Below, piece after piece: positions 23,627-63,293 of a stretch of DNA of 64,000 nt (its first letter is position 1; each line of letters starts with the position of its first letter). The stretch is from positions 1 through 64,000 of the forward strand of contig JAFGJS010000117.1 in assembly GCA_016928995.1 (NCBI GenBank), written 5' to 3'. Origin of the DNA: Candidatus Sumerlaeota bacterium. Its GTDB lineage: Bacteria > Sumerlaeota > Sumerlaeia > JAFGJS01. Position numbers and translations under genes: made by a program. The notes under the pieces are model-generated. The model saw only the letters and a program-made list of their open reading frames with translations. It was not told where the DNA came from and made no database searches.

Positions 23627-24448
23627 TTAAACGATATCCGGCTGATCAATCTCCTCGAATCGAATCTTATCGAGAAAACGCCGATCACGTTGAATTTGTT
23701 TACGCGCAATAATATTGGCAAGCACCAACAATAAAATTGCCGCGGAAAATAAACTAGGCAAATGAATCAAGGACAAAAGGTCAACGCCATATCGTTCATT
23801 CAGCTGATTTGCATACCATCCTAAAATTGTTTGATGAAACTCATCGCAGACATAATTCATTAATCCTGCTAGAAGCCATATAGGCAACATGCCACGTAAT
23901 AAACCTCTCCCTTTGACGCCAATAACCCATCGAATAGTATGAGCACGGTAAATGAGTATCTTCAAAAAAATAATTAATAATACAACATTGCACGATTCAT
24001 AAAATATAGATTGAACTAGACGCACAATAATAACAGACAATAATCGAACATTGTAAAAATCAATATACACCTGATCCATTGCCATAGCGCATCGATACGG
24101 GACCTGAAAGAATAAAAACAGTGTGATAAACGGAGCATAAATAGAATCAAGCCAGATTTGTTTGGCGTTAGGTAGTATTCGGAGTTGTTCATCCTGTAAA
24201 AAAAAGGCTTTATAACATAGACGATTATAGATCAATGGTGCGAATATCAGCAAAAAAAAGAGAACAAGCTCGTAAAAATCATTAGATACATCTGAGATTA
24301 TATCGATATACGGGCCAAAAAGATCATCATTCAATGTGTGGCCCAAACCTGCAAGCAAGCCGTAGATAAATATGCACCAGTACAAAAAACGGGTACGGCG
24401 CAAAATGCGGCGTTGAATGGGATTGAACTGTAGAAGCGAAAGGGACAA
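23627..24448 (-). CDS. Hypothetical polytopic membrane protein
   Basis: A 273-residue protein with five or six hydrophobic segments (for example VLFFLLIFAPLIY, VVLLIIFLKILIY and LFSAAILLLVLANIIA) and a charged C-terminal tail (RRFLDKIRFEEIDQ). The gene is clearly more AT-rich than its neighbours, suggesting transfer. The only in-frame start in reach is TTG at 24448 (or ATT a little upstream), with no ribosome site, and an inverted-repeat element (24479-24635) sits directly upstream. The 5' end may therefore have been disturbed by that insertion. No family is recognised. Confidence 0.55.
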   Translation of the reverse strand: MSLSLLQFNPIQRRILRRTRFLYWCIFIYGLLAGLGHTLNDDLFGPYIDIISDVSNDFYELVLFFLLIFAPLIYNRLCYKAFFLQDEQLRILPNAKQIWLDSIYAPFITLFLFFQVPYRCAMAMDQVYIDFYNVRLLSVIIVRLVQSIFYESCNVVLLIIFLKILIYRAHTIRWVIGVKGRGLLRGMLPIWLLAGLMNYVCDEFHQTILGWYANQLNERYGVDLLSLIHLPSLFSAAILLLVLANIIARKQIQRDRRFLDKIRFEEIDQPDIV

Positions 24449-24478
24449 ATGTAAATTTGCTCGAATTTAATTTTATTA

Positions 24479-54083: not shown

Positions 54084-54581
54084 TTAATCCGCCGGTTGTC
54101 CGGCGGCGCGGCTTTTACTTCTCTCGATGGATTGCAACGCCAGGTAGTTCGCGCCGAATTTAGCCAAGTTATCCAGCTCGGTGTCGTACTGATCGAAATG
54201 CCGCTCTTCGTCCAGCACTAGTTCTTCGAACACGCTTTTTGAGACAGAATCCGCGTTGGCGGCGCATTCGTTGGCCCAGATGTTGTAGTCATGGGCGCTT
54301 TCCTGCTCCATGCCCGCGGCCTTTTCCAGCATCGCCTTCACGTCGTGAATCTTCTCCACTCCATGCGCCACGGCCATTTCCACTTCGCCTTTGAGGAACA
54401 AAATGCGCTCGGCTAATTTCTCGACGTGGAGCATTTCGTCGATCGCCGTGCGTTTGAACAACCCCGCCAGCAGATCATAGCCCTGGTCGTCGCAGTGAAA
54501 GTGGAAATACATATACTGATGCACCGCGGCCATTTCATCCGCCACGGCCTTGTTCAACAATTCGATGCTTTTCTCGTGCAT
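54084..54581 (-). CDS. bfr: Bacterioferritin
   Basis: A 165-residue four-helix-bundle iron-storage protein. AAGGAG seven bases before the ATG at 54581 sets the start. The ferroxidase residues of Escherichia coli Bfr have counterparts here: Glu16 (ADEMAAVHQY), Glu49 and His52 (AIDEMLHVEKLAERILFL), Glu92 (MEQES), Glu125 and His128 (DEERHFDQYDTEL). The haem-ligand methionine corresponds to Met50. The C-terminus has an extra basic tail (SIERSKSRAAGQ). It is a single gene with its own terminator. Confidence 0.9.
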   Translation of the reverse strand: MHEKSIELLNKAVADEMAAVHQYMYFHFHCDDQGYDLLAGLFKRTAIDEMLHVEKLAERILFLKGEVEMAVAHGVEKIHDVKAMLEKAAGMEQESAHDYNIWANECAANADSVSKSVFEELVLDEERHFDQYDTELDNLAKFGANYLALQSIERSKSRAAGQPAD

Positions 54582-54923
54582 GTCCGGTCTCCTTTTTATG
54601 TTGCATGATTCGTGTATCATTTTTTCGGTGATATTCTGACTGATTCTGGTAAGGTTCATTCCGGCCTGCAACAAAAAAGATAAGGATGAGCATTCTTCAT
54701 CAGGAGCTTTCTAAAGTCCGTTCGACGTGTTTTCTTTTCTCTCTTCGCTGTTGCTATCGGGATCGTAATCGTTGCTGCTGTTGTTTTTTCGATAGCGATT
54801 TCGATCGGACAAGAAGAGACTTTATCTAGTTCCGGTATTCTTTGTCAGTTTCAGGATGCACGAACTTTTTTGTCTTTGTATGGCGGGGCCTTGGCGTGAG
54901 AAAAAATTCGAAATCCGAGTGAA
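54582..54923. other. 342 bp gap with hexanucleotide-like low-complexity tract
   Basis: About 54735-54815 is a degenerate run of TTGCTATCGGGATCGTAATCG-like six-base units. Similar tracts occur near 1721-1765, 33151-33180 and 41868-41895, always between genes. Near 54902-54916 there is a short TTCGAAATCC unit of the 47077 type, just before recO. No gene or terminator was seen. Confidence 0.4.
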
Positions 54924-57950: not shown

Positions 57951-58598
57951 TTATTGCATTTTAGTCTTCAAAAAATCGGCCACAGATTTCATTGCTTCTT
58001 CGAACTTATCATTGAATAGGTTTTCCCTTAAAGTTCCATTCTTTGCTCGACATGAAGCGCGCAAGATTTTTTTGCGTTGTTCTTTGGTTTTTTGTTCGTT
58101 AAGTTCGTCTTTAATGCCTTGATCTGTGTCTGGATTTATAGCCGTAAGTTCATCGTTTATCGCCAGCCACAATTTATCTTCAAGATCGTATAATGGCTCC
58201 ATGAGACTGTTCAAATCTTGATCCCAAAAAATCTCAGATTGAAGAAGTTCTGGATAAAACTCCGATCGGACTGAACGGATATTCTGCAACCATTCTTTAT
58301 ATATCTTATAACGCCAGTCAAAAGGTCTTTCATTTTTGCTCGGAGGATCGGCTAGTGGAGAATTAAAAATCCTCGGATGCCTAATAGCAGCAATCGCATC
58401 CCGATACTGAAAACACAAACGAAGAATTCGTTTTGCCAATGAATACTCATCCTGACCTTTGATCTGCTGTTTCCATGTATCAAGGCCTTTCCATGCAAAA
58501 TAAGCGAGCACACAAGTCGCTACAGCGAGTACACAAGTCATAAAAGCGAGCAAGCCAGTTGTAATGGCAAGCACTACATCAGTCCAATTGGGGCTCAT
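57951..58598 (-). CDS. Hypothetical protein with N-terminal membrane helix
   Basis: A 215-residue protein. The N-terminus is one or two membrane helices (VVLAITTGLLAFMTCVLAVATCVLAYFAW), followed by a soluble, charged helical domain (WKQQIKGQDEYSLAKRILRL, NDELTAINPDTDQGIKDELNEQ). The gene is clearly more AT-rich than surrounding genes, which suggests recent acquisition. It lies just upstream of the HicB-like gene on the same strand. No family is recognised. Confidence 0.6.
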   Translation of the reverse strand: MSPNWTDVVLAITTGLLAFMTCVLAVATCVLAYFAWKGLDTWKQQIKGQDEYSLAKRILRLCFQYRDAIAAIRHPRIFNSPLADPPSKNERPFDWRYKIYKEWLQNIRSVRSEFYPELLQSEIFWDQDLNSLMEPLYDLEDKLWLAINDELTAINPDTDQGIKDELNEQKTKEQRKKILRASCRAKNGTLRENLFNDKFEEAMKSVADFLKTKMQ

Positions 58599-58795: not shown

Positions 58796-59113
58796 ATGGT
58801 GAGCATGCAACAGATTCAAACGCTGGCGGATCGAATCGCCCGGGAGTTCCGGCCGGAGCGTGTGATATTATTCGGCTCTTATGCGCATGGCGATCCGTCG
58901 CCGGATTCCGACGTGGATCTGCTGGTGGTGCTGCCGTTCGAGGGCAAGAATTTTCGCAAGTCGCTCGAAATCATCAATCGCATGTCGCCGCCGTTCGCCG
59001 CCGACATCCTGGCGCGCAAGCCGGACGACACGCGCCGGCGCTATGCCTTGGGTGATCCGCTGATCCGCGAAGCTCTGGATCAAGGAAAGGTGCTTTATGA
59101 ACGAGATCGTTGA
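58796..59113 (+). CDS. MNT-type minimal nucleotidyltransferase (putative antitoxin)
   Basis: A 105-residue protein with the DNA polymerase beta-type nucleotidyltransferase motif GSYAHGDPSPDSDVDLLVV: GS-x10-DxD, where both aspartates are kept, so it may bind metal and nucleotide. GAGGA lies nine bases before the ATG at 58796. In MNT/HEPN pairs this protein counteracts the HEPN toxin, in studied cases by modifying it with AMP. Its 3' end overlaps the HEPN gene by 17 bases, which supports a functional pair. Confidence 0.88.
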   Translation: MVSMQQIQTLADRIAREFRPERVILFGSYAHGDPSPDSDVDLLVVLPFEGKNFRKSLEIINRMSPPFAADILARKPDDTRRRYALGDPLIREALDQGKVLYERDR

Positions 59114-59471
59114 GGAATGGATTCGGAAAGCCGAGGGCGATTATGCCACGGCCTGCCGGGAACTGGCCGCGACGGAGCATCCAAACTATGACGCGGTCTG
59201 TTTCCATGCGCAGCAGTGCGTGGAAAAACTGCTTAAAGCGCTGGTGATCCAGACCGGCGGACATCCGCCCAAAATCCATGACTTGTCGCAACTATTGCCT
59301 CTCTGCCCGGATTGGACGTGGCCAGTAGAGGAATTGCATTATCTTTCCCGCGCCGCCGTGGATTTCCGCTATCCCGGCGAAGAAGCCGACCTTGACGAAG
59401 CGACAGAGGCCTTGGAAATTTGTGGACGCATACGTGATGATTTGCTGAAGAGGCTGAGGCCGGAATCTTGA
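59097..59471 (+). CDS. HEPN-domain protein (putative toxin of MNT/HEPN pair)
   Basis: A 124-residue all-helical HEPN protein (PF05168-like): EEWIRKAEGDYATACREL, then CFHAQQCVEKLLKALVIQTG, KIHDLSQLLPL and the AVDFRYPGEEADLDEATEAL helix. The classical RNase motif R-x4-6-H at the last helices is not obvious; DFRYPGEE occupies that place, and the only spacing match is RELAATEH near the N-terminus. RNase activity is therefore uncertain. AAAGG precedes the ATG. It overlaps the MNT gene and ends 59 bases before the phosphohexomutase start. Confidence 0.88.
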   Translation: MNEIVEEWIRKAEGDYATACRELAATEHPNYDAVCFHAQQCVEKLLKALVIQTGGHPPKIHDLSQLLPLCPDWTWPVEELHYLSRAAVDFRYPGEEADLDEATEALEICGRIRDDLLKRLRPES

Positions 59472-59530: not shown

Positions 59531-61333
59531 ATGTTGAGCAAAGAGGCGGAAAAGCGGGCTAAGGAGTGGTTGGGCGAGGAGTTCGACGCGAAGACGCGCA
59601 AGGAAGTGCAGGCGCTGTTCGACGCGGAGGATTGGGTGGAGCTGGAGAACCGGTTCTATCAGACGATGGAGTTCGGCACGGGCGGGCTGCGCGGCGTGAT
59701 GGGCGCGGGCACGAACCGGATGAATCAATATACCGTGGCCCAGGCGACGCAGGGGCTGGCGGCGTACATCAATAAGAAGGTGAAGAGCAAGGCGGCGCGC
59801 AAGGTCGCGATCAGCTATGATTCGCGCAACCGCTCGAAGGAGTTCGCTGCGTCGTGCGCGACGGTGCTGGCGGCGAACGGGATCAAGACATATCTCTTTC
59901 GCGCGCTGCGTCCGACGCCGGAGCTTTCCTTTGCCGTGCGCGAGCTGGGCTGCTGCGCGGGCGTGATGGTCACGGCGAGCCATAATCCGAAGGAATACAA
60001 CGGCTACAAGGCGTACTGGGCCGACGGCAAGCAGCTGACGCCGCCGCATGACAAGGGCGTGATCGCCGAGGCGCGCAGGGTCAAGTCGATCCGGCAGGTC
60101 AAGACGATGGACTTCAAGCAGGCGAAGGCGAAGGGCCTGGTGGAGATGATCGGCGCGGAGGTGGATCGCGCGTTCCTCAAGGCGGTCAAGGCCTGCTCGC
60201 TGAATCCCAAAGCGATCAGGGAGCACGGGCCGGAGACGAAGATCGTGTTCACTCCGCTGCACGGCACGGGCGGCACGCTGGTTCCGCAGGCGCTGAAGGG
60301 CTGGGGCTTCAAGAACGTCATTTGCGAGCCGCAGCAGATGGTTCCGAATGGCGATTTTCCCACGGCGAAGTCGCCGAATCCCGAAGAGCCGGCCGCGCTG
60401 AACGAGGCGATCAAACTGGCGAAGAAAAAAGACGCGGAGCTGGTGATGGCCACGGACCCGGACGCCGACCGTCTGGGCATCGCCGTGCGCGAGGGCAAAG
60501 GGAAGTATCGCCTGGTGACGGGCAACGAGCTCGGCGCGATGATCGCGTATTACGTCTGCGAGACGTTGACCGAACAGGGCCGCGCGGATGAACTCCAGCG
60601 GATGATGTTCATCACAACCATCGTGACCAGCGACCTGTCGGAGTGCATCGCGCCGCGCTACGGCGTGAGCGTGGAGGAGTGCCTGACCGGCTTCAAGTGG
60701 ATCGCGGGCATCGTGAACCGCGAAGAGGAGAAGCGCGCCAAGGGCAAGAAATTCCGGAATTGCTTTTACGGCTACGAGGAGAGCTACGGCTACGCGCTCG
60801 GTACGCATTGCCGCGACAAGGACGCCGTGGTGTCGGCGTGCATCGTGGCGGAAATGGCCTGCTGGGCGCGGTCGCGCGGGCAGTCGCTGATTCAGCTGAT
60901 CGAAGAGATCGTGATGAAGTTCGGCGCGTTCGTCGAGTCGCAGGTTTCGATCAAGATGGAGGGCAAGGCCGGCGCGGAAAAAATCGGCAAGCTGATGGAT
61001 CAATTGCGCTCGAATCCGCCCAAACGCATCGGCCAGCTGACCGTGTTGCGCGTGACCGATTATGTAAACAACGTCGTGACGGACGTGAAGAGCGGCGCGA
61101 AATCCAAAGGTCCAGGGCTGCCGAAATCGAACGTGCTGGAGTTTGAACTCTCCGGTGGCAGCAAGCTTTTCGCCCGGCCGTCCGGCACGGAGCCGAAGAT
61201 CAAGTTTTACTTCAACTTCTGCGACCGCGACGGCGCGCCGTACACGTCAAAGAAAGAACTTAATAAGAAAACTAAAGCGACGCGGGAATTGCTGGAACAA
61301 ACCAAGGAAAGTTTCCTGAAGAGCATCCGCTAG
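59531..61333 (+). CDS. Phosphoglucomutase/phosphomannomutase, PGM2 type
   Basis: A 600-residue alpha-D-phosphohexomutase that interconverts hexose 1- and 6-phosphates. The order is a substrate loop FGTGGLRGVMGAG near residue 50, the phosphoserine loop TASHNPKEYNGYK (Ser150), the metal loop DPDADRLG (Asp309, Asp311, Asp313), the sugar-binding loop GYEESYGYALG and the phosphate-binding RPSGTEPKIKFYF. The long form with an N-terminal helical segment (EAEKRAKEWLG) matches the PGM2/PgcA group. GGAG lies eight bases before the ATG at 59531. It would supply sugar 1-phosphates for the many glycosyltransferases here. Confidence 0.92.
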   Translation: MLSKEAEKRAKEWLGEEFDAKTRKEVQALFDAEDWVELENRFYQTMEFGTGGLRGVMGAGTNRMNQYTVAQATQGLAAYINKKVKSKAARKVAISYDSRNRSKEFAASCATVLAANGIKTYLFRALRPTPELSFAVRELGCCAGVMVTASHNPKEYNGYKAYWADGKQLTPPHDKGVIAEARRVKSIRQVKTMDFKQAKAKGLVEMIGAEVDRAFLKAVKACSLNPKAIREHGPETKIVFTPLHGTGGTLVPQALKGWGFKNVICEPQQMVPNGDFPTAKSPNPEEPAALNEAIKLAKKKDAELVMATDPDADRLGIAVREGKGKYRLVTGNELGAMIAYYVCETLTEQGRADELQRMMFITTIVTSDLSECIAPRYGVSVEECLTGFKWIAGIVNREEEKRAKGKKFRNCFYGYEESYGYALGTHCRDKDAVVSACIVAEMACWARSRGQSLIQLIEEIVMKFGAFVESQVSIKMEGKAGAEKIGKLMDQLRSNPPKRIGQLTVLRVTDYVNNVVTDVKSGAKSKGPGLPKSNVLEFELSGGSKLFARPSGTEPKIKFYFNFCDRDGAPYTSKKELNKKTKATRELLEQTKESFLKSIR

Positions 61334-61366
61334 CCGCGCTATCAGCGTTGCGATCAAGGAGGAACT

Positions 61367-62440
61367 ATGGGCGACATTCATGGCAAACCGATAGCCGAAC
61401 GCATTGATTGGCTGTTCGATCTAGCCCAGCGGCATGGCGAAACCTTTCGCAGCCCCGAAGCCTGGCTGGCGCGCGAACGCTATCTGGCTGAGCATCCGAC
61501 CGCGATTGCGGTGCTGAAGTGCATGGATGGGCGCATCAACATTCCAGTGGCGACCAATACGCCTTCCGGCATCCTCATGCCATTCCGCAATCTCGGCGGC
61601 ATGTTCGATCTCGGCTGGCCGCACCTGGGCGAGGTGCTGTCGCATCATGTCCTGCGCATGACCGGCGCAGGACGCCGCGTGCTGATCATCATCACCTACC
61701 ACTGGTCGAAGAGCAGCGCGAAACGGGGCTGCGCAGGCTTCAATTACGACACCGAAGCAGCCATCGCCCATACGCATGAAATCCGCCGTCAGGTCGAGCA
61801 TATCTTCGGCAACGGCCATGGCACAGTGTATCCGCTGGTGTGCGGAATCGAAACCGACGACGAAGCGATGGTCATTCACGGCCCCGATGACAAAGCGCTG
61901 AATCTGGCCGAATTTACCGCCGCGGATGCAGCCACGCTGGAGCCTCGTTTGGCTGCGCTGCTTCCCGGCATGCCTGCGCAGATGCGCGCCGATCTGCTGC
62001 CGTTGCTGCACGGCAATCTTGAGCACATCGCGCAAGTCCGCGAACAAGCGCGGCGGAATGAGCGCGTGCTCGACGTGGAACACCGCGAATGGATGATCTG
62101 CCTGGGACGCGGCTTCGATTTCCTGCATTTCCCCAACGTCGCGTTGATCATCGGTCCATACAGCCCTGATCTTGCCGATCCGTTGCGCAAAGCCGCGGGC
62201 ATCATTCAAAGCAACATGCAAGCCGGGCGTATTCCAGACGATGGCTTTCTGCTGCTGGCCTCCGTGCCGTATGACGAGCTTGGCGTCGATCGTGCGCGAG
62301 CCGAATTGAAATCCCGTTTTCTCTCTCATTTTGCGGCTCGCGTACTGGAAGAGGAATTCGGCGAGCTCTTTGGAAAAATGCACCAGCATACCGCGGTGCT
62401 TGACTGGCGCTCACGCAACCTCGAATTGATCGATGATTGA
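61367..62440 (+). CDS. CsoSCA-like (beta-type) carbonic anhydrase domain protein
   Basis: A 357-residue protein. AGGAGG sits five bases before the ATG at 61367. The zinc and dyad residues of beta-carbonic anhydrases appear as Cys52-x-Asp54-x-Arg56 (LKCMDGRIN) and His112...Cys122 (TYHWSKSSAKRGCAG). A ten-residue His-to-Cys step, instead of the usual H-x2-C, is characteristic of the carboxysomal enzyme CsoSCA. CGIETDDEAMVIHGPDD and the later NLEHIAQVREQARRNE and GRGFDF regions match the same family by pattern. Neither RuBisCO nor carboxysome shell genes are present. A TauE/SafE permease follows 85 bases later. The residue assignment is recognised by eye and needs a profile search. Confidence 0.6.
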   Translation: MGDIHGKPIAERIDWLFDLAQRHGETFRSPEAWLARERYLAEHPTAIAVLKCMDGRINIPVATNTPSGILMPFRNLGGMFDLGWPHLGEVLSHHVLRMTGAGRRVLIIITYHWSKSSAKRGCAGFNYDTEAAIAHTHEIRRQVEHIFGNGHGTVYPLVCGIETDDEAMVIHGPDDKALNLAEFTAADAATLEPRLAALLPGMPAQMRADLLPLLHGNLEHIAQVREQARRNERVLDVEHREWMICLGRGFDFLHFPNVALIIGPYSPDLADPLRKAAGIIQSNMQAGRIPDDGFLLLASVPYDELGVDRARAELKSRFLSHFAARVLEEEFGELFGKMHQHTAVLDWRSRNLELIDD

Positions 62441-62525: not shown

Positions 62526-63293
62526 ATGCTGGCGGACCTGACATCGCTGGATTGGACGCTGATCGTCGTTTGCGCGTTCGTGATCGGCATCGCGAAAACG
62601 GGCATTCCGGGCGCGGGGATTCTGTCCGCGCCGGTGCTGGCGGCGATCCTGCCGCCCAAGCCGTCCACGGGATTCGTGCTGCCGATGCTGATCATCGCCG
62701 ACACGCTCGCCGTGGTTTACTGGCGCCGCGACGTAAAGTGGAAGCATCTGACGAAGCTGCTGCCCATCGCGGCGGCGGGCATCGTGCTGGGCTGGCTGCT
62801 GATGGATCGCATCAGCAATCGCTGGTTCGGGCCGCTGATCGGCGCGATCGTGGCCGCGATGCTGGCGATCAACTACTGGCGCAACGCAAAGTGGGAGGGC
62901 GAGCCGCCCGTGCCGGAGCAATGGTGGTTTCCCGTGGCGGTCGGGCTGCTGGCCGGACTCACGACCATGATGGCCAACGCCGCCGGTCCGGTGATGGCGC
63001 TGTATCTGCTGGCCATGCGCCTGCCGAAGGAGGAGTTCATCGGCACCGGCGCGTGGTTTTTCATTGTGGTGAATTGCTTCAAGGTTCCGTTTCAGCTGGA
63101 ACTGGGGCACATCACGCTGGATACTTTCAAAGTCAATCTGGCGCTGGCGCCGGTGATCTTTGCCGGCGGCGTAACCGGAATCATAATCGTGCGCCGCCTG
63201 CCGCAAAAGTATTTCGTCTGGATCATCGAGGTTTTAACAGCGCTGGCCGCTTTGAATCTGATTTTTCCCGTGCGCTCCCTGATGGGAGGTTGA
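62526..63293 (+). CDS. TauE/SafE (TSUP) family permease
   Basis: A 255-residue membrane protein with seven or eight hydrophobic segments arranged as two similar halves. VCAFVIGIAKTGIPGAGILSAP and the second-half GLLAGLTTMMANAAGPVMALYLL are the conserved repeats of the sulfite/organosulfonate exporter family. The ATG at 62526 is the first of the frame; an AAGGA lies 13 bases upstream. The substrate is unknown and could be a sulfur compound or another small anion. It lies between the CsoSCA-like and DUF2079-like genes on the same strand. Confidence 0.88.
   Translation: MLADLTSLDWTLIVVCAFVIGIAKTGIPGAGILSAPVLAAILPPKPSTGFVLPMLIIADTLAVVYWRRDVKWKHLTKLLPIAAAGIVLGWLLMDRISNRWFGPLIGAIVAAMLAINYWRNAKWEGEPPVPEQWWFPVAVGLLAGLTTMMANAAGPVMALYLLAMRLPKEEFIGTGAWFFIVVNCFKVPFQLELGHITLDTFKVNLALAPVIFAGGVTGIIIVRRLPQKYFVWIIEVLTALAALNLIFPVRSLMGG

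Follow-up and report, generated by a model that had tools for sequence, protein, structure and literature searches.

A branch of CsoSCA-type carbonic anhydrases has been described under the name CsoSCA2 (variant 2) in autotrophs and heterotrophs, Accumulibacter included (PMC9164163, 2022). Its members were reported to have a short N-terminus with two short helices and an intact active site, the branch was stated not to have been studied, and CsoSCA2-like enzymes were proposed as the possible origin of carboxysomal CsoSCA (PMC9164163). A 'non-cso' orphan cluster of CsoSCA was described subsequently; its members are shorter than the carboxysomal forms, have no hook domain and are encoded close to genes for NAD or [Fe-Ni] hydrogenases or for permeases (PMC11086599, 2024). 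The CsoSCA2 branch has also served as an outgroup (PMC12646314, 2025). No carbonic anhydrase assay of the branch was found in the open-licence literature searched. The idea of a CsoSCA2 enzyme is thus not new, having been published in 2022 and 2024, and the protein analysed here is an ordinary member of this branch, which is described but has received little experimental attention; its host is unusual.

The gene lies in a stretch of 64,000 nucleotides from a Candidatus Sumerlaeota bacterium (hereafter the window, meaning the whole of the DNA that was analysed). The reading frame and motifs were recovered as described in the initial annotation: 357 codons follow an AAGGAGG ribosome-binding site, and the protein contains the Cys-x-Asp-x-Arg and His112-x9-Cys122 motifs as well as the segment TDDEAMVIHGPD at residues 163-174. 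The features are listed in Table 1. A promoter and terminator scan gave results at chance level. The protein is predicted to be cytoplasmic, as no signal peptide was recognized by eye.

Table 1. Features of the CsoSCA2 locus (window coordinates).
Feature	Position	Strand	Basis and remarks
Phosphoglucomutase/phosphomannomutase (PGM), upstream neighbour	59531..61333	+	Pfam; 33-base gap; not a conserved partner
AAGGAGG Shine-Dalgarno sequence, directly upstream of the ATG at 61367	61356..61362	+	Read from the sequence
CsoSCA2-type carbonic anhydrase gene	61367..62440	+	357 aa; Pfam PF20686 match and modelled fold
Cys52-x-Asp54-x-Arg56, predicted zinc ligand and catalytic Asp-Arg pair	61520..61534	+	Motif; Pfam alignment starting at residue 52
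His112-x9-Cys122, predicted zinc ligands	61700..61732	+	phmmer alignment to 2fgy; invariance in 44 sequences
Second carbonic anhydrase-like domain, residues about 202-357, without the zinc ligand set	61970..62437	+	Model aligned through residue 357
Asp251	62117..62119	+	Gap-free second-domain alignment to CsoSCA; invariant in 44 sequences
TauE/SafE permease, downstream neighbour	62526..63293	+	Pfam PF01925, 110 bits; 85-base gap; not a conserved partner

Family membership was assigned by profile and sequence searches. The score against Pfam PF20686 (CsoSCA_cat) was 34.1 bits (E = 2.5e-08), which exceeds the cut-off of 21.5 and agrees with the family named in the initial annotation, and no match to Pro_CA (PF00484) was returned by the Pfam search at E values up to 1. 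With the carboxysomal equivalog model TIGR02701 a score of 51.2 bits was obtained, below the cut-off of 241.05. In searches of PDB sequences CsoSCA alone fell below E = 0.001, both with the single sequence (E = 1.6e-4) and with the family profile (E = 3.9e-08), and a second sequence match to CsoSCA was located at residues 206-260. The protein belongs to a real family, because 291 related stretches were found among 84,980 species genomes. It is a member of the described CsoSCA2/non-cso branch and not a carboxysomal equivalog; every CsoSCA2 feature that could be tested was present and three features of carboxysomal CsoSCA were lacking.

An AlphaFold2 model (pLDDT 89, pTM 0.86) was calculated from an alignment of 44 sequences consisting of the window protein and 43 homologues 68-85% identical to it. 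The top Foldseek ranks were occupied by CsoSCA of Halothiobacillus and Cyanobium, and alignment of the model with CsoSCA structures by VIA-align gave Z values of 28-30; 334-339 of the 357 residues were covered, with a sequence identity of 17-19%. Single-domain beta-class carbonic anhydrases (beta-CAs) reached Z values of no more than about 11, and the two-domain 1ddz reached 19.7. Residues 1-357 of the model align with CsoSCA and cover both the active and the defunct domain; the second domain is presumably degenerate.

Cys52, Asp54, Arg56, His112 and Cys122 are invariant in 44 of the 44 aligned sequences. In H. neapolitanus CsoSCA the residues aligned with His112 and Cys122 are His242 and Cys253 (phmmer alignment to 2fgy; H. 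neapolitanus residue numbers are 2fgy chain numbers minus 28 owing to a 28-residue tag), two of the three zinc ligands of that enzyme (PMC12646314), and Cys52 was assigned as the counterpart of Cys173 by the motif and the start of the Pfam alignment. In the model a strand formed by residues 45-52 closes at Cys52, His112 stands at a strand end and Cys122 precedes a short helix, the same placing of zinc ligands on strands and helices as in ordinary beta-CAs; the predicted structure thus keeps the CsoSCA fold with the putative ligands at the expected positions. The N-terminus is short, with two helices (residues 9-27 and 30-42) and a first strand beginning at residue 45, so that about 40 residues lie ahead of the catalytic domain and there is no hook insertion. 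In the structural alignment the first residue of the model lies opposite about residue 68-70 of CsoSCA, with no sequence ahead of it; hence there is no RuBisCO-binding tail. In the gap-free alignment of the second domain Asp251 falls on Asp409 of H. neapolitanus CsoSCA, and it too is invariant in the 44 sequences. Asp409 is found in this constitutively active enzyme, and its counterpart in the RuBP-dependent Cyanobium enzyme is Lys469 (PMC11086599). Activity independent of RuBP is predicted because Asp251 matches Asp409 and is invariant, and activity without partners is expected since the N-terminal parts for RuBisCO binding and hexamer formation are lacking and Asp251 is present.

The assignment of the 357-aa protein as a carbonic anhydrase is strong, with catalysis predicted from family, fold and conserved residues. 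Some ordinary beta-CA relatives have shifted to other substrates, and a comparable shift, for example to carbonyl sulfide or carbon disulfide, was considered for the window protein. The COS hydrolase 3vrk and the CS2 hydrolase 3ten have the beta-CA fold and appear in the structure list, and the neighbouring TauE/SafE permease is annotated as a member of a sulfite exporter family. Both hydrolases are, however, placed lower (Z of about 9) and CsoSCA is by far the nearest fold; the Asp-Arg pair shows no variation among the aligned sequences, the vicinity of TauE is not conserved and inorganic-carbon uptake genes adjoin some of the homologues. Together these points make a changed substrate improbable.

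The initial annotation had further proposed that the carbonic anhydrase and the TauE/SafE permease form a small anion-handling unit, in which CsoSCA2 would make bicarbonate and the permease would move it. Both genes are present on the same strand and in close succession. The flanks of 80 CsoSCA2 homologues (up to 8 kb per side, less at contig ends) were searched with tblastn for TauE, PGM and a Na/Pi cotransporter, and no homologue of any of the three was detected in them; the pairing with TauE/SafE thus recurs in none of the 80 loci. TauE relatives also occur in five genomes of the host's class that do not contain CsoSCA2, one of these relatives being 51% identical, and the CsoSCA2 neighbours differ between genera. 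The proposed unit did not withstand this survey and is very unlikely. No clean empty site was available among the class relatives because the TauE relative in one class genome (G020) has no PGM alongside, as judged by eye.

A conserved operon partner was sought and rejected, as the neighbour clusters are genus-specific; the largest of them reflect synteny within Accumulibacter, with an EF-Tu type GTPase gene upstream and a SpoU methylase gene downstream. Since its neighbours are not conserved beyond the genus, the CsoSCA2 gene behaves as a unit of its own. Seven of the 80 loci have CsoSCA2 convergent to genes for DabA and a Proton_antipo_M-type antiporter (at about 9.2-17 kb of those loci), which suggests a link of CsoSCA2 to inorganic-carbon uptake in those bacteria.

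Several other genes of the window were recorded in passing. Overlapping nucleotidyltransferase and HEPN genes at 58796-59471 form a typical MNT/HEPN toxin-antitoxin-like pair. A 215-aa ORF on the reverse strand (57951-58598, low GC of 0.40) matches no Pfam family; by eye it has a single hydrophobic segment, at the N-terminal end, and it may have been acquired recently. A second reverse-strand ORF (23630-24451) has a GC content of 0.38, against 0.57 for the window, and a ferritin/bacterioferritin-like protein is encoded on the reverse strand at 54084-54674.

The host genome (4.55 Mb in 161 contigs, about 92% complete, estimated contamination 0.53%) was searched for RuBisCO, shell proteins and further carbonic anhydrases. 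The RuBisCO large subunit (PF00016) was not found in it, and the CsoSCA2 gene stands outside any cso operon, between PGM and TauE. The initial annotation of a CsoSCA-like carbonic anhydrase outside a carboxysome locus is accordingly upheld by the Pfam match, the fold, the predicted zinc-site residues and a genome devoid of detectable RuBisCO. Its statement that RuBisCO and shell genes are absent was borne out genome-wide for RuBisCO and in the neighbourhood for shell genes; genome-wide it fails for the latter, as shell genes are present on another contig (C63).

The locus on C63 (L085:4781-12596 of the host genome, G000) contains shell genes of the BMC-H and BMC-P-like kinds, three of each, and an EutN/CcmL-type vertex protein is among its products. 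It further encodes a class II aldolase, an acetate kinase, a phosphate propanoyltransferase, a CoA-acylating aldehyde dehydrogenase and, by eye, a DeoR-like regulator. It is a sugar or aldehyde metabolosome and not a carboxysome, and apart from those of this metabolosome no BMC-domain (PF00936) shell genes were detected in the host. That CsoSCA2 works within this microcompartment of its own host is conceivable from the presence of BMC-H and BMC-P genes in the genome. The compartment encoded there is, however, an aldehyde metabolosome, the CsoSCA2 gene is located on a different contig and inspection by eye revealed no targeting extension at the N-terminus of the protein. An aldehyde metabolosome is not known to need CO2, and such a location is considered extremely improbable.

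Searches for Pro_CA, alpha-CA and Pro_CA_2 in the 92%-complete genome found none. A gamma-CA candidate from a search with E. coli YrdA was rejected, the single weak match being LpxA, and DabA was not found in the host genome. CsoSCA2 may provisionally be regarded as the only carbonic anhydrase of the host, with the alpha, beta and gamma classes searched in a genome that is 92% complete.

Within the host's class the CsoSCA2 gene was found in one of 39 genomes, namely this one, and is absent from the 38 others; Pro_CA occurs in ten of the 39. A tree was calculated from 81 proteins (the window copy plus the 80 closest of the 291 relatives). It places the window copy in a well-supported clade of three, whose other two members are a Myxococcota and a Desulfobulbaceae sequence; the surrounding sequences are mostly proteobacterial, and the best identity to the window copy is 85%. 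Horizontal transfer is indicated because the gene is missing in 38 class genomes and nested among proteobacterial copies; a horizontal gain is the simplest reading, presumably by transfer from a proteobacterium-like donor into this lineage.

A contaminating or misassembled sequence in the bin would also account for the sole copy in the class, for the identities of up to 85% to proteins of other phyla, for a GC3 of 0.69 against 0.83-0.85 in both flanking genes and for the nearby contig end, which lies within about 3 kb of the gene on a contig of 65,523 bases. However, the GC3 of the gene equals the window mean of 0.70, the gene sits between two others on one contig, TauE has its 51% identical relative in the class, the estimated contamination of the assembly is 0.53% and, at 85% identity, no species among the 84,980 sampled genomes is close enough to be the source of a contaminant. 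Contamination or misassembly is therefore unlikely, and a horizontal gain of CsoSCA2 is retained as the probable origin.

Pro_CA is also present in 32 of the 46 genomes with a CsoSCA2 gene (about 70%), and CsoSCA2 was therefore rejected as a general replacement for beta-CA. DabA is encoded somewhere in 21 of the 46; both counts describe co-occurrence and not enrichment.

Taken as a whole, the protein is very likely a cytoplasmic, free-standing beta-class carbonic anhydrase of the CsoSCA2 branch that supplies bicarbonate in a heterotroph and was probably acquired horizontally. This explanation is based on the observed family, fold, conserved residues, genome context and phylogenetic placement; catalysis, the location in the cytoplasm, the role in the cell and the direction of the transfer are inferred. 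Each chain would hold one zinc through Cys52, His112 and Cys122, the Asp54-Arg56 pair would gate the fourth zinc site and the protein would convert CO2 to bicarbonate and back. Its C-terminal half would repeat the catalytic domain in degenerate form, retained as a scaffold, and the enzyme should be active alone and independently of RuBP. Its most likely role in a heterotrophic host would be to provide bicarbonate for biosynthetic carboxylases and to equilibrate respired CO2, standing in for the ordinary beta-CA that is seemingly missing from this genome. It is plausible that CsoSCA2 is the only or main carbonic anhydrase of the host cell. The stronger proposal, that a horizontally acquired CsoSCA2 is the sole carbonic anhydrase of a cell from a heterotrophic lineage otherwise without the gene and that an ancestor-like form thereby serves housekeeping, is put forward tentatively, as a possibility we rather doubt. 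If it is true, an ancestor-like form of the carboxysomal enzyme works as a general housekeeping carbonic anhydrase. A genome with CsoSCA2 as its apparent only carbonic anhydrase offers a clean case for the role of the free enzyme.

The ordinary beta-CAs (Pro_CA, PF00484) share with the window protein the arrangement of the zinc site and the fold of the catalytic domain (Z of about 9-11), whereas the window protein consists of two fused domains, one of them defunct, and gave no Pro_CA match at E = 1 or better. The carboxysomal CsoSCAs (2fgy and 9g4t from H. neapolitanus, 8thm from Cyanobium; TIGR02701) share the near-full-length fold, the single zinc site and the Asp-Arg pair. In contrast to these, the window protein is only 17-19% identical in sequence, has 357 residues instead of about 514, scores below the TIGR02701 cut-off, has neither RuBisCO-binding tail nor hook domain and is not accompanied by a carboxysome. 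With the CsoSCA2/non-cso branch it has in common the truncated N-terminus, one active and one defunct domain, all catalytic residues and the lack of a carboxysome locus; no difference was found in the protein itself, and the branch is scattered among autotrophs and heterotrophs. What sets this member apart is its host, in which it is the sole copy in the class with no other class of carbonic anhydrase and no DabA detected, and its surroundings of a Na/Pi cotransporter, PGM and TauE.
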